From Nitrospirales bacterium (GTDB taxonomy: Bacteria > Nitrospirota > Nitrospiria > Nitrospirales > UBA8639), in the NCBI GenBank assembly GCA_029261295.1, contig JAJDBP010000017.1, positions 310,001-374,000 on the forward strand: 64,000 nt of DNA, in the 5' to 3' direction. Position 1 is the stretch's first letter. The number at the start of each line of letters is the position of its first letter. Below, one piece after another: positions 214 through 6,930 of this stretch. Below the pieces are notes generated by a model. That model worked only from the letters and a program-made list of their open reading frames with translations. It was not told the DNA's origin and searched no databases. The position numbers were made by a program, and so were the translations under genes.

Positions 214-894
214 TCAATCGCGTTTGCCGGGATCGAGTTCGATAATGCCTTTCCGAATAGCCAAAATAGCGGCTTGTGTACGATCGTAGGCATGGAGTTT
301 GTGGAAAATATTGCGTACGTGATTTTTGACAGTTTTTTCACTCAGATCCAACACATTGGCAATTTCTTTGTTCGTTTTTCCGTCAGCGACTAATTGCAGG
401 ACAGTAATTTCCCTTTCAGTGAGATCGTGCTCTAAAATTCCTCGCTTTTTTCCTTTCCCCTCTGAGAGCAATGAGAATTCTGCCAATATTTTACTAGCGA
501 CAGAGGGATGAATGAGTGATTCCCCTTTGGCAATGGTGCGAATGGCGGCAATAATTTGAGCTGAATCACAATCTTTCAAAAGATACCCGGTCGCCCCAGC
601 TCGTACGAGGTCAAAGATATATTGCTGTTCCTCATACATAGTCAAGGCCACCACACCAATATGAGGAAACTCGCGCTTGATAATACGAGTTGCTTCAATC
701 CCCGTCATACCGGGCATACTGACATCCATGAGAATCACATCTGGCAGCAGCGTCCGAGCCTGCTCCACGGCCTCTCCACCATCCTTCGCTTCTCCCACAA
801 CTTGGATATCATCCTTGGTTTCAAGTATTGCCGAGAGACCTTCCCGCACCACTCGATGATCATCAACGATTAAGACCTTCGTTTTTTTAGGCAT
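214..894 (-). CDS. NarL/FixJ-family response regulator
   Basis: A 226-residue cytoplasmic two-component regulator. The receiver domain spans about residues 5-120, with the acidic pair D11/D12, phospho-acceptor D57 (in LMDVSMPG), T85 and K107. A LuxR-type helix-turn-helix lies at about 155-220 ([20 protein letters not shown]). The length is normal for NarL proteins. The start codon (892-894) lies inside the end of the upstream histidine kinase gene, so the two overlap by 8 bp and are probably translationally coupled; the kinase is the obvious partner. The target promoters cannot be read from the sequence. Confidence 0.93.
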
Positions 895-2023
895 ACCGAG
901 TTTTCTCCTTTGTGGCGAGAGGGACAGTTATTTCGACGGTCGTTCCGGTCCGAGATTTCGACACCCACCGGATATCGCCTCCTAACATTCGTGCACGCTC
1001 CTTCATGCTTCTGACTCCAAAATGATCCCATTTCTCTGGATTTTGACTTTCTTTCTGAACGTTGAACCCCTGCCCGTTATCCGAGACTTTAGCTTCTAAT
1101 AAGTCTTTCGTGAGCTGAACCTTTACGATTACTTTCGTGGCCCTGGCATGTTTGACCACATTACTTAAGGCTTCCTGCACCATGCGAAAGACAAAGACTT
1201 TTGTTTTGGGATCCAGCGTCGACTCGTCTCCATTTCCTTTAAAAGTCGTGCGAATCCGATGTTCCCGCTCATACGAAGAAAGGTAATTTGATAATGCGGG
1301 AATAAAGGCTAAATGATCATATTGCCCAGGACGAAGGTTATAGACCACCTCACGCGCTTCTTGAATCGCATGTTTTAATTGTACCGTCGTTTGATTCAAC
1401 ATGGTCAATCCTTTGTCCGGATCTTCAGAAACTAATTCCCTCACCCGTTCCATTTTGAGATTGACACCCACCAAGGTTTGCACTAACCCATCATGAATCT
1501 CGCAAGCAATACGGGTCCGTTCTTCATCAACAGCCCCTTCAGCTTCTTCCTTGACATACAAACGAAAAAGCGATTGGTAACGAGTTAACGTGCTTTCAAT
1601 TTCTACTGATGCCCGAATCCGTGCTTCAATGAGTTGCCACATAAACTTGGCACTCGCGCCCCCAACTAAAGCTAGATGCGGGGCTTGAACATCCAGCAGC
1701 TTTTGCTCCACTTCGGGATCCCCAGTCACGTCGATAACCAAATCCACGTCTTTCATTTTCAATAAATCTTGGTAGCGACGGCGAACAGGAATACCTAACT
1801 TTTTGGCCAATCGAACGCCATCGGTGAGCACACGAGTTTCCGCCACACCCACTACAGTGACTAATGGATCTTCCGCAAAAATTTCCATGAGTGCCGTCCC
1901 GCCCTGTCCAGCCCCAATGATCGCCACTCGGCTAGGGGTCACGACTTTTGGTGACCGACTAACTTTTGATTTTCGAGAAGAGGTCCCGCTTTTGATGGAT
2001 TTTGAAGATTTGAGAGTTGGCAT
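887..2023 (-). CDS. Rossmann-domain/DegS-NarX-type sensor histidine kinase fusion
   Basis: A 378-residue cytoplasmic kinase with no membrane segment. A basic, Ser-rich leader (1-30) is followed by a dinucleotide-binding Rossmann-like domain (about 31-145). This carries the glycine-rich turn GAGQGG at 37-42 and resembles the NAD(P) domain of Gfo/Idh/MocA or homoserine dehydrogenases. A coiled linker leads to a HisKA_3 domain with phospho-acceptor H177 (in ACEIHDGLVQTL), then a HATPase_c domain with an N-box near N287 (QEALSNVVKHA) and a DNGQGF G-box at 315-320. HisKA_3 kinases pair with NarL-type regulators, and one follows with an 8-bp overlap. I infer that the Rossmann domain senses a nucleotide cofactor such as NAD(P)(H); ligand binding is not proven. 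Confidence 0.85.
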   Translation of the reverse strand: MPTLKSSKSIKSGTSSRKSKVSRSPKVVTPSRVAIIGAGQGGTALMEIFAEDPLVTVVGVAETRVLTDGVRLAKKLGIPVRRRYQDLLKMKDVDLVIDVTGDPEVEQKLLDVQAPHLALVGGASAKFMWQLIEARIRASVEIESTLTRYQSLFRLYVKEEAEGAVDEERTRIACEIHDGLVQTLVGVNLKMERVRELVSEDPDKGLTMLNQTTVQLKHAIQEAREVVYNLRPGQYDHLAFIPALSNYLSSYEREHRIRTTFKGNGDESTLDPKTKVFVFRMVQEALSNVVKHARATKVIVKVQLTKDLLEAKVSDNGQGFNVQKESQNPEKWDHFGVRSMKERARMLGGDIRWVSKSRTGTTVEITVPLATKEKTRYA

Positions 2024-3925: not shown

Positions 3926-4450
3926 TTAATTGGTTTCTGCCGTTTCTGCTGTTTCTGCCGGAATATCTTCCGTAGCGGTAGGCTCTTCGGCAATTGGCTC
4001 TTCTCCAGCCTGTTTAGCCAAAGTGACTTGAATTTTAGTGACCACATCACGATGCAACTTTATAGGCACAGGAAAAGTTCCCAATTCTTTGAGTGGTTGA
4101 GGTAACTGAATTTTCCGACGATCAACCGTCATGCCCTGGGCAGCTAATTGTTCGGCGATATCCTTTGAGGTCACCGAGCCAAATAATTTATCGTCCTTCC
4201 CCGTTTGCACTTCAAAGGTCAAGGAAACATTTGACATCTGCTTGCCAATATCTCCTAACGCCTCTACTTCTTTTTTTGCCTTTTGGTCAATTTGCCGCTT
4301 CAAATGCTGTAGAAATTTCACCTGACGGTCTTCAGCTAAAACCGCTTTTTTCCGTGGTAAGAGAAAATTTCTGGCGTAGCCATCAGCGACAGTTAAGACG
4401 TCTCCCAAATACCCTAAACCTTCGACATTTTCCTGCAAAATCACCTTCAT
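3926..4450 (-). CDS. rplI: large ribosomal subunit protein bL9
   Basis: A 174-residue ribosomal protein. The N-terminal 23S-binding domain shows the diagnostic start MKVILQENVEGLGYLGD and the DGYARNFLLPRKKA signature. It is followed by the central helix and a C-terminal domain (about 80-150). An acidic Glu/Thr/Ala-rich tail of about 25 residues exceeds the usual 150-residue length. An AAGGAG ribosome-binding site precedes the ATG, and a sigma70-type promoter is visible upstream (4486-4514). The usual partners rpsF, rpsR and dnaB are absent here, and glyA follows directly instead. Confidence 0.96.
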   Translation of the reverse strand: MKVILQENVEGLGYLGDVLTVADGYARNFLLPRKKAVLAEDRQVKFLQHLKRQIDQKAKKEVEALGDIGKQMSNVSLTFEVQTGKDDKLFGSVTSKDIAEQLAAQGMTVDRRKIQLPQPLKELGTFPVPIKLHRDVVTKIQVTLAKQAGEEPIAEEPTATEDIPAETAETAETN

Positions 4451-4693: not shown

Positions 4694-5179
4694 ATGACTG
4701 CCATTCAGATTGCCAAACTGATCACGTGCCTGTTGCTGCTATCGGTCATGAATCCACCTCAGACTTTGGCCGAAGGGAAAATGGCCAAGGAGACACCTGG
4801 ACCAGAACCCTTTAGCGATTTGAATCTTCGATTCAGCAACCGTCCTCTAGATCCACCTGAAAATCTTATTGTTCAAACAGTCCCATTAACGGATTTTTCC
4901 GTAGCCACAGCCATGGTGGCCCCTTCGCCACAGGCCGTTATTTTTGAAAACGACCTTCGGCAACGGCTGGCCGTTCTTACTCAGGATGAAACTGGGCCTC
5001 TCACCCTCTTTCTGCTGGCACCCCTCCCCCTTGATCCCAAGCTCCCGAGCCTGGTTCAATGTGCGCATGATCGTCGCTGTGAGACTGACCGAACCCCGCT
5101 CACTGGAGGCCTAGGGTGCTTGGCCCTCTGTCTGAAGGAACAACTCGAAGCCGTCGCGACTAATCCTCTCCCACGATAA
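4694..5179 (+). CDS. small exported protein of unknown function
   Basis: About 161 residues. I prefer ATG 4694 to a possible TTG at 4664, because it puts a conventional signal peptide at the N-terminus (MTAIQIAKLITCLLLLSVM, then NPPQTLAEG) and a G-rich Shine-Dalgarno-like run lies upstream. The mature part is Pro-rich, with four cysteines near the end (CAHDRRC and CLALC). These could form disulfides in the periplasm. No family is recognised. The gene ends 4 bp before the SF1-helicase-like gene, so the two are probably one operon. Confidence 0.6.
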   Translation: MTAIQIAKLITCLLLLSVMNPPQTLAEGKMAKETPGPEPFSDLNLRFSNRPLDPPENLIVQTVPLTDFSVATAMVAPSPQAVIFENDLRQRLAVLTQDETGPLTLFLLAPLPLDPKLPSLVQCAHDRRCETDRTPLTGGLGCLALCLKEQLEAVATNPLPR

Positions 5180-5183
5180 ACAG

Positions 5184-6686
5184 ATGAAACTCGACGACCT
5201 ACTTACTCAAGCCACCTCTCAACTTCGCGATGAACGAGAAATCGCGATGAATCAGGGGTTAGATGCACCCTTAGATATTCCCCATGCGTCTCATCTTGGC
5301 AAAGTTGGCTCGCTCCATCTTTATAGCTGCGAGGTCTTGCCGGGAAGCAAGATTATTGCTGATGTCCCCATGACGCTTTTACCAGGAAACGACATGGAAG
5401 CCACCGAAGGCTATCTCCTAGGTTGGGTCAATGGCACCCTTCTTATCCAAACCTTTGACCATGTTGGGAAAACCCTCGAGCATTGCACCCTTATTCCGGA
5501 TACCTCTGGATTTTTAGAAATGGGTGCGACACGACTTTCCGACATGGTCACGAAACCCGATTCGTTTACACTTGGACCAGCCGAACGACTGGTCCCATGG
5601 CTACAACCCTCGCCAGGAGCCGATGCTGGCCAAGCCCGAGATAATATTCCCCCCGCTGTACTCTCCATGATGTGGGGCGATGATCGAGCAACTCGATGGA
5701 CCAAACTGACTACCCTCATTGTGGATCAAGTGAAGAAAAATAAACGCATTCTCTTAGTCGCACCCGATCATGAAACCGTGGATGCCTTAACCGGAGCCAC
5801 CGCGCACGCCTTAAAAATGGCAGCTCTTCCCCACCGCAGCATACTTTGTCGCTATGAAATGGCGCTCACCAAACCATCAGCCACCATGCCGATTCATGAA
5901 CTCGGCTATGAAGCTCAGATGTACCACTTTTATGCCAAAGCGAATGCCAACAAAATCGCCCTGCGAAAAAAATACGATCGTTTTCGGGAACTCACGCCCA
6001 TCTTGGCCTACAAGCGCGACAAACAAAAAGATCTGAATGAAGTCAAACTATTAGAATGGCGATTGCTCACCCAACTCAGTGATTGGCAGGGCAAGGTCAA
6101 AGGAATTGATAAAATCCTCAGAGACTACGAAGCCTTACCAATATGGAAACGGATGGGGATGCAATTCACTGGAAAAAACATAGAGACCTTGGCTGAATAC
6201 CGCGTGATTTACGAAGGAAAAATTCACGGACTTATGCAAGAAGTAGAAGTCGCGCAAGCCCGCATCAAAGAACTCATTCCTGAAGCAACCATCCCTAAGG
6301 ACTTACGTCCGGAATATGATGAACTCAAAGAAGAAATAAAACGACTTGGCGGGACAAAGAAAATCAGAGAAATGCTCAGTGCGGGAGAAGGAACCAACCG
6401 CCAAGCCTTTGCTCAAAACAAACGAGTCATGGCCACGACACCTGGTCGAATTTTGACCGATCCTCTCTTTCGAAAAGTGCCCTATGATCTCCTTATTGTA
6501 GACGATGCACCACGTATCCCCACTCCCTTACTCCTTGCCGCAAGCGGACTCATTCGTGAACGTATTATTTTAAGTGGAGATACCAATGACTTGGTGCAAG
6601 GTCAGGACCCCTCGCAGACTAGATGGCCTCATGAACTCTTAAGAACCACACTCAGTTCAGCGGCTCAACCCACTGCAGTGGGATAA
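5184..6686 (+). CDS. degenerate SF1 helicase/AAA_11-like protein lacking Walker A
   Basis: A 500-residue cytoplasmic protein. An N-terminal beta-rich region (about 45-130) precedes a RecA-like core interrupted by a long charged helical insertion (about 250-400). The layout recalls the first RecA domain of Upf1/Dna2-type SF1 helicases: KRILLVAPDHETVDAL at about 187-202 resembles motif Ia, YDLLIVDDAPR (434-444) resembles Walker B (DEAQ/DDA), and ILSGD (462-466) resembles motif III. Where the P-loop GPPGTGKT should be, the protein reads GDDRATRWT (174-182), and the second RecA domain is absent. I infer a non-ATPase derivative, perhaps with a binding or scaffold role. Function unknown. Confidence 0.6.
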   Translation: MKLDDLLTQATSQLRDEREIAMNQGLDAPLDIPHASHLGKVGSLHLYSCEVLPGSKIIADVPMTLLPGNDMEATEGYLLGWVNGTLLIQTFDHVGKTLEHCTLIPDTSGFLEMGATRLSDMVTKPDSFTLGPAERLVPWLQPSPGADAGQARDNIPPAVLSMMWGDDRATRWTKLTTLIVDQVKKNKRILLVAPDHETVDALTGATAHALKMAALPHRSILCRYEMALTKPSATMPIHELGYEAQMYHFYAKANANKIALRKKYDRFRELTPILAYKRDKQKDLNEVKLLEWRLLTQLSDWQGKVKGIDKILRDYEALPIWKRMGMQFTGKNIETLAEYRVIYEGKIHGLMQEVEVAQARIKELIPEATIPKDLRPEYDELKEEIKRLGGTKKIREMLSAGEGTNRQAFAQNKRVMATTPGRILTDPLFRKVPYDLLIVDDAPRIPTPLLLAASGLIRERIILSGDTNDLVQGQDPSQTRWPHELLRTTLSSAAQPTAVG

Positions 6687-6844: not shown

Positions 6845-6930
6845 GCCGAAGTGGCGGAATGGCAGACGCACTAGATTCAGGGTCTAGCGCCCTCCGGGGT
6901 GTGCGGGTTCAAGTCCCGCCTTCGGCACCA
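6845..6930 (+). tRNA. tRNA-Leu (anticodon CAG)
   Basis: An 86-nt class II tRNA. The acceptor stem GCCGAAG pairs with CTTCGGC, and the 3' CCA is encoded. The D-arm region reads GTGGCGGAATGGCAGACGC. The anticodon stem CTAGA/TCTAG encloses the loop TTCAGGG, giving anticodon CAG (codon CUG). A long variable arm and the T-arm GCGGGTTCAAGTCCCGC complete the tRNA-Leu form. Confidence 0.97.

Follow-up and report, generated by a model that had tools for sequence, protein, structure and literature searches.

Helicases of the UPF1-like SF1B type (UPF1, IGHMBP2/SMUBP2, SETX/Sen1 and Dna2; Pfam AAA_11 plus AAA_12) carry a 1B barrel on a stalk and a first RecA domain (RecA1) with a helical insertion. CnuH of the CoCoNuT systems is described (PMC11090510) as a UPF1-like, ATP-driven helicase of McrBC-type operons with an OB/stalk module and a coiled-coil insertion, and the AF2 multimers presented there suggest that a wHTH effector protein docks on this insertion. 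Helicase folds have also been kept after the loss of the ATPase motifs, as described for the pseudohelicase Utp25 (PMC9539457) and for the N-domains of RecC and AddB (PMC4824097), and DNA binding without helicase activity was kept in Deinococcus PriA (PMC4504706). These proteins belong to other helicase classes than the UPF1-like pseudohelicase described here, and AddB/RecC and Utp25 keep both RecA folds, whereas the Nitrospirales protein has half a motor only. A limited search of the open-access literature found no half-UPF1-type pseudohelicase with inverted constraint; pseudohelicases as such are already known, and an order-wide UPF1-type half-helicase with inverted constraint appears, within the limits of that search, to be new.

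The window, that is, the whole stretch of DNA that was analysed, comprises 64,000 nucleotides from a member of the Nitrospirales, an order with nitrite oxidisers and comammox bacteria among its members. The gene under study is an ORF of 500 aa with an ATG start (Table 1). Like the UPF1-like SF1B helicases, its product has a 1B barrel on a stalk, a RecA1 domain with a helical insertion and the same order of motifs; it differs from them in having no P-loop and no RecA2 and in not keeping the catalytic Glu as a rule.

Table 1. The pseudohelicase, its parts and its neighbours, in nucleotide positions of the window.
Feature	Position	Strand	Basis
Divergent neighbour rplI (bL9), then glyA and nrdR (presumed names)	3926..4450 (rplI)	-	locus reading
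Small exported-protein gene, 161 aa from likely start ATG 4694, no known family	4694..5179	+	next to pseudohelicase
Pseudohelicase gene: UPF1-like SF1B helicase reduced to its N-terminal half, no P-loop, no RecA2	5184..6686	+	ORF; AAA_11 in orthologues; order-wide orthologues
1B-like beta-barrel, residues 30-105, missing in family f2	5271..5498	+	six strands in model; aligned with same region of intact helicases
Stalk region, residues 107-140	5502..5603	+	helix 107-123 in model; dN/dS 0.032 for 113-140
Walker A position W164-T173, WGDDRATRWT; invariant R171 replaces catalytic lysine	5673..5702	+	profile alignment; R171 in 113/113
Motif-Ia-like stretch, residues 183-200	5730..5783	+	alignments
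Coiled-coil insertion, residues 242-412; conserved turn 317-340 = nt 6132-6203	5907..6419	+	alignment, model, pairwise identity
Degenerate motif II (Walker B), residues 437-443, LIVDDAP; D440/D441 = nt 6501-6506	6492..6512	+	alignment
Motif III remnant, residues 461-468	6564..6587	+	alignment
tRNA-Leu(CAG), conserved downstream neighbour	6845..6930	+	starts 158 bp after pseudohelicase ORF

The original prediction, made from the sequence of the window, had described motif-Ia-, Walker-B- and motif-III-like segments in order, a Walker A position reading GDDRATRWT and a coiled-coil insertion, all of which we found again. After the Walker A position, the protein runs through the motif-Ia-like KRILLVAPDHETVD, the motif-II-like LIVDDAP and the motif-III-like LSGDT. 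In its AlphaFold model, which is weak (pLDDT 62, pTM 0.35), the N-terminal part consists of a short helix, a six-stranded region at the place of domain 1B and the stalk helix. The RecA1 part has its first strand at residues 160–163, a helix (168–184) that immediately follows the former P-loop, then the motif-Ia strand (189–192) and a further helix (196–212). The best-predicted part of this weak model is a coiled-coil hairpin made of a 76-residue helix (242–317) and a 36-residue helix (333–368). More helices extend to about residue 431, and the motif-II strand (434–439), the motif-III strand (457–464) and a variable tail complete the chain.

The relation to helicases emerges from profiles rather than from the single protein, which matched AAA_11 below the Pfam cut-off (E 0.0083) and had no match in NCBIfam. 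AAA_11 was matched by all 24 aligned orthologues (best E 3.8e-12), 4 of which also touched the IGHMBP2 family helicase model of NCBIfam (best E 3.8e-4), and the family profile aligned with the intact 905-aa helicase L092 over positions 5–467 of 472 (E 1.1e-21 in a search set of nine sequences). The 1B barrel on its stalk aligns by sequence with L092 and with three further intact helicases (L093, L094 and L069), and its strands appear in the weak model. Searched by sequence against solved structures (PDB), the window protein alone gave no match; the family profile reached DNA2 over 60 positions (E 1.5e-4) and, weakly, SMUBP-2 (E 0.14).

Structural comparison of the weak model pointed the same way. 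Foldseek returned 19 rows at E ≤ 0.001, all UPF1-like (E 3.0e-8 to 6.7e-4; query TM-scores low, 0.21–0.36), namely SETX, IGHMBP2, UPF1, Sen1, Dna2 and spliceosomes, whose matching chains we take to be Aquarius; P-loop SF1B helicases thus stand at the top of the search, weak as the model is. VIA-align paired the model with UPF1 (9qwn, chain 296–679; Z 10.7, rmsd 5.6, 310 residues) and IGHMBP2 (4b3f; Z 10.6, rmsd 7.8, 310 residues), and its middling rows, often plain coiled coils (CT398, moesin, HlyD), were left out of the evidence. The matches to UPF1, IGHMBP2 and SETX in both searches reach up to motif III and end, on the UPF1 domain limits as we take them to be, where the second RecA domain would start. 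A UvrD-like (SF1A) origin was rejected, as AAA_11 and UPF1-like matches dominate and UvrD (2is4) came at VIA-align rank 46 with RecA1 only. The SF1-helicase-like core of the original prediction therefore stands as a helicase relative on the AAA_11 profiles and can be refined to UPF1/DNA2-like SF1B, not UvrD-like.

How complete is the loss of the motor, and how widely is it shared? In the profile alignment, the Walker A position of the window protein falls exactly on WGPPGTGKTT of L092. The pattern GxxxxGK[ST] occurs nowhere in the sequences of the near-full-length orthologues (0/113), all of which carry arginine at the position of the Walker A lysine, so that homologues do share the loss, a point that the original prediction had left for checking. 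This set holds the distinct ORFs of at least 420 aa, taken stop to stop from the genomes whose loci were fetched (156 loci with 122 distinct ORFs above 100 bits, of which 9 shorter ones were dropped). W164 is conserved in 111 of the 113 and D167 in 84 (E in 13), and intact P-loops in the order were seen only in separate helicases, never in orthologues. Motif II has D in 89, E in 21, A in 1 and a gap in 2 orthologues at position 440, and E in 55, D in 42, N in 12, G in 2 and a gap in 2 at position 441 (n = 113); with DD in the window protein, the Asp-Glu of active helicases is absent there, and its catalytic Glu is not kept as a rule in the family. Motif III keeps D at position 466 in 90 of the 113. 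RecA2 is absent from the window ORF, which ends ~30 residues past motif III, and the whole of its own genome has no match to AAA_12 (second RecA) and none to AAA_11 at E ≤ 1e-3, whereas control genomes do match both (9 and 12 of 14). The C-terminal RecA half, given as absent in the original prediction, is indeed missing: the ORF ends, the tRNA gene follows, and the genome offers no AAA_12.

At E ≤ 0.001, pseudohelicase matches were present in 15 of 20 genomes of the genus, in 42 of 48 of the family and in 144 of the 150 good genomes of the order; over all 196 genomes of the order the count is at most 178, as at least two of the matches counted are weak and probably belong to other helicases (G125, E 4.9e-4; G185, E 2.8e-4). 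At class level, 190 of 246 genomes had a match, and a phylum profile search matched 138 of 395 genomes (G025 and G125 only via other helicases); among the matches listed in either case, all lay in the same order. Plasmid and phage collections searched with tblastn gave no match. Of ten genomes without the pseudohelicase that were examined, eight have rplI, and in five of these (G025, G152, G155, G172 and G180) it lies within ~550 bp of a contig end, so some absences may be assembly gaps; those of G125, G167 and G184 are not explained in this way.

The same order also contains intact helicases, which we sorted into group A (L092, L093, L094, L069 and L108) and group B (L095–L098, L102 and others, ~760–920 aa). 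Both groups have the N-terminal region, RecA1 and the coiled-coil insertion in common with the pseudohelicases but differ from them in an intact GPPGxGK[ST], the presence of RecA2 and a patchy distribution. In a tree of 37 rows (21 pseudohelicase rows chosen, of which the 18 in the full-length set entered; midpoint root only; some long branches), the 18 pseudohelicases formed one clade with support 100/99, and groups A and B fell in separate clades from it. Within the clade, f4 branched off before f2, which branched off before f1 and f3, as the families do. Given this single clade and its agreement with the families, the simplest history that the tree suggests is a single loss before the families split, followed by vertical inheritance. 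Judged from these sequences, the loss is ancient and order-wide, and a merely local decay is rejected.

Is anything left for selection to act on? Within the genus (12 sequences), the whole protein had a median dN/dS of 0.086; the coil stood at 0.053, residues 113–140 at 0.032 and the tail at 0.24. These ratios are rough, as they come from 52–62 of 66 pairs with computable dS and dS is high (medians 0.65–1.13). Pairwise identity among 16 pseudohelicases was 0.42 at the Walker A position, 0.61 in the coil, 0.63 in motif II and 0.59 in motif III, whereas intact helicases showed the reverse (Walker A 0.72 and coil 0.21 in group B, n = 11; 0.82 and 0.30 in group A, n = 5), in sets whose overall divergence differs. 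The 16 orthologues exclude f4; with f4 included (18), the coil stands at 0.55 and Walker A at 0.38. Because the coil outranks the Walker A position here and the opposite holds in the intact relatives, constraint, as far as these comparisons go, is inverted: it has moved to the coil, now one of the main conserved parts, and left the P-loop site freer, the invariant arginine excepted. Many of the 31 invariant residues of the 24-row alignment lie within the coil (R266, P272, D283, L284, E286, V287, L290, E291, R293, R323, Q327, G330, N332, R360, A368, E377, G389, G390 and R395), and its turn has the conserved form YEALPIWKRxxMQxxGKN.

Family f2 provides a natural deletion. Its N-terminus reads VKAFDLLPALL...DPSGFLQ...RLEDM, the first helix being joined straight to the stalk with the 1B barrel gone. 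The stop of the upstream exported-protein gene lies ~30 residues ahead of the RLEDM/I stalk motif and is overlapped by a GTG (GTGA) in five of six f2 loci (L054, L055, L056, L058 and L059; in the sixth, L057, the exported gene was missed by the sequence pattern used), and this GTG is presumably the start codon of the f2 pseudohelicase. Eight f2 genomes have both genes, and in each of them only ~30–90 bp separate the exported-gene and pseudohelicase matches (profile or protein). Because f2 lost the 1B barrel yet keeps stalk, RecA1 and coil, the alignments indicate that the barrel is dispensable in one lineage and that the common core is the stalk, the RecA1 shell and the coil.

The small exported-protein gene that the original prediction had placed 4 bp ahead is there, with a 4-bp gap to the pseudohelicase and a signal-like N-terminus. 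Its product (161-aa numbering) has conserved R46, E85, D87, T137-G138-G139 and four cysteines (C123, C129, C142 and C146), and its family is without a trusted Pfam match; the sole trace, Permuted_GreAB-C (2 of 11 members, best E 0.012), was not trusted, and a single-sequence model was poor (pLDDT 50). The gene was found in 51 of the 196 genomes of the order, the 145 without a match being mostly f3. In 49 of the 51 carriers it immediately precedes the pseudohelicase and shares its strand (coordinates compared by eye); the exceptions are G021, where the two genes sit on different contigs, and G007, which has no match to the pseudohelicase. The matches in the f3 genomes G140 and G191 and in G051 contain a stop. 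Because nearly all f3 genomes are without the gene, we ruled out the exported protein as a general obligatory partner.

Around this pair, the usual order in f1 is a response regulator, a histidine kinase, nrdR, glyA and rplI on one strand, with the exported gene and the pseudohelicase divergent from them; these neighbours carry the names that we presume from their sequences. The gene at 887-2023 (-), which we likewise take for a histidine kinase, has an N-terminal Rossmann-like stretch (VAIIGAGQGGTALMEIF) before its kinase part and is usually conserved beside the locus in f1. A tRNA-Leu(CAG) gene follows the pseudohelicase on its own strand, ~0.1 to 3 kb away, in 17 of the 18 related loci that were tested, and it does so in the window as well. 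In the f4 loci L090 and L091, the next gene is instead one for an FtsK/SpoIIIE-like DNA translocase, which lies within 10 bp downstream of the pseudohelicase or overlaps it.

Three of the group A helicases were scanned: each matches the Mokosh MkoA/MkoC models, and two of them, L093 and L069, also contain a PLD domain. For the window protein, PADLOC gave a weak MkoA match only (E 0.0026), Pfam found no PLD domain, and no effector gene like those of Mokosh and CoCoNuT was seen beside the pseudohelicase among the neighbourhoods read. The intact helicase with an effector partner or PLD domain that marks those defence systems is thus not what this locus encodes. The McrBC-type operon in which CnuH is described (PMC11090510) is absent here too, and CnuH would serve by analogy as a precedent for a coiled-coil arm as a docking site, not as a test.

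With helicase homology, loss of the ATPase motifs, purifying selection and order-wide presence, the protein is, on sequence grounds, a pseudohelicase, and we infer that it has no ATPase activity. The original prediction of a domesticated helicase relative with a non-ATPase role is supported: of the two outcomes that it had named as refuting, neither was seen, as the fold search, weak model notwithstanding, does find P-loop helicases and no orthologue has an intact P-loop. The losses and their age, the action of purifying selection and the move of constraint onto the coil can be read from the sequences; what the protein does is a matter of probability. We think it probable that a dead RecA1 shell presents a coiled-coil arm for a docking or scaffold role. 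Before the Nitrospirales diversified, a UPF1-like SF1B helicase would have lost its P-loop and second RecA domain and become a core gene. The remnant would be a RecA1 shell, made up of a strand, the Arg-for-Lys site, a helix and the degenerate motifs II and III, set on a helical stalk and carrying the long coiled-coil hairpin. No longer cycling ATP, the shell would most likely hold and orient the coiled coil, which would dock onto a partner through its conserved faces and turn. Counter to this docking reading, the conservation of motifs II and III is roughly equal to that of the coil; for this reason, and because about half of the orthologues keep E441, the RecA1 half may have a residual nucleotide or metal role. 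The high conservation of the coil could instead serve self-assembly. A wider proposal, which we regard as possible though rather doubtful, is an order-wide Nitrospirales machine around the coil arm of a domesticated helicase of UPF1-like, defence type, related to Mokosh or CnuH, in which coil and turn would engage a core partner.

The main rival to coil-mediated docking is static nucleic-acid binding, in which the 1B barrel and the RecA1 surface would hold RNA or DNA and the coil would be only a spacer. Three points fit such a role: f1, f3 and f4 retain the 1B barrel, the stalk and the motif-Ia region, the model matches RNA helicases, and Deinococcus PriA (PMC4504706) is a precedent. Nevertheless, we consider it unlikely, as f2 has lost the whole barrel, the usual two-domain nucleic-acid cleft is gone without RecA2, and conservation of the coil far exceeds that seen in intact relatives.

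Could the protein instead serve other motors? As an auxiliary regulatory subunit of a helicase-nuclease, it would read sequence or gate another motor, as RecC and AddB do in RecBCD and AddAB. SF1 helicase subunits that are dead in this way are known (PMC4824097), and the role would account for core-gene conservation; it is improbable all the same, since RecC and AddB are UvrD-like with both RecA folds, whereas we found a single RecA half of AAA_11 type, and neither a helicase nor a nuclease gene recurs stably beside the locus. A split motor, in which RecA2 of another protein completes the ATPase in trans, is more improbable again. Motifs II and III are partly kept, which speaks for it, but a RecA2 supplied from outside would not bring back ATP binding because the P-loop is gone in every orthologue, and the genome has no AAA_12, the helicase family searched. 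Finally, that the gene is decaying without function is hardly credible: the catalytic motifs are lost, yet the low dN/dS in the genus, open full-length ORFs across the order and residues invariant across four families all speak against decay.

The inverted conservation points directly, and in a testable way, to the functional surface. The locus is a clear natural case of a motor protein minus its ATP site and half its fold that is yet a fixed core gene of its order. Comparison with the intact helicases of the order could reveal the role of coiled-coil arms in bacterial UPF1-like helicases, which matters for defence helicases too. If the order-wide machine were real, the motor, RecA2 and, in one lineage, the 1B barrel would have been discarded, and the coil with its turn would be the functional element.
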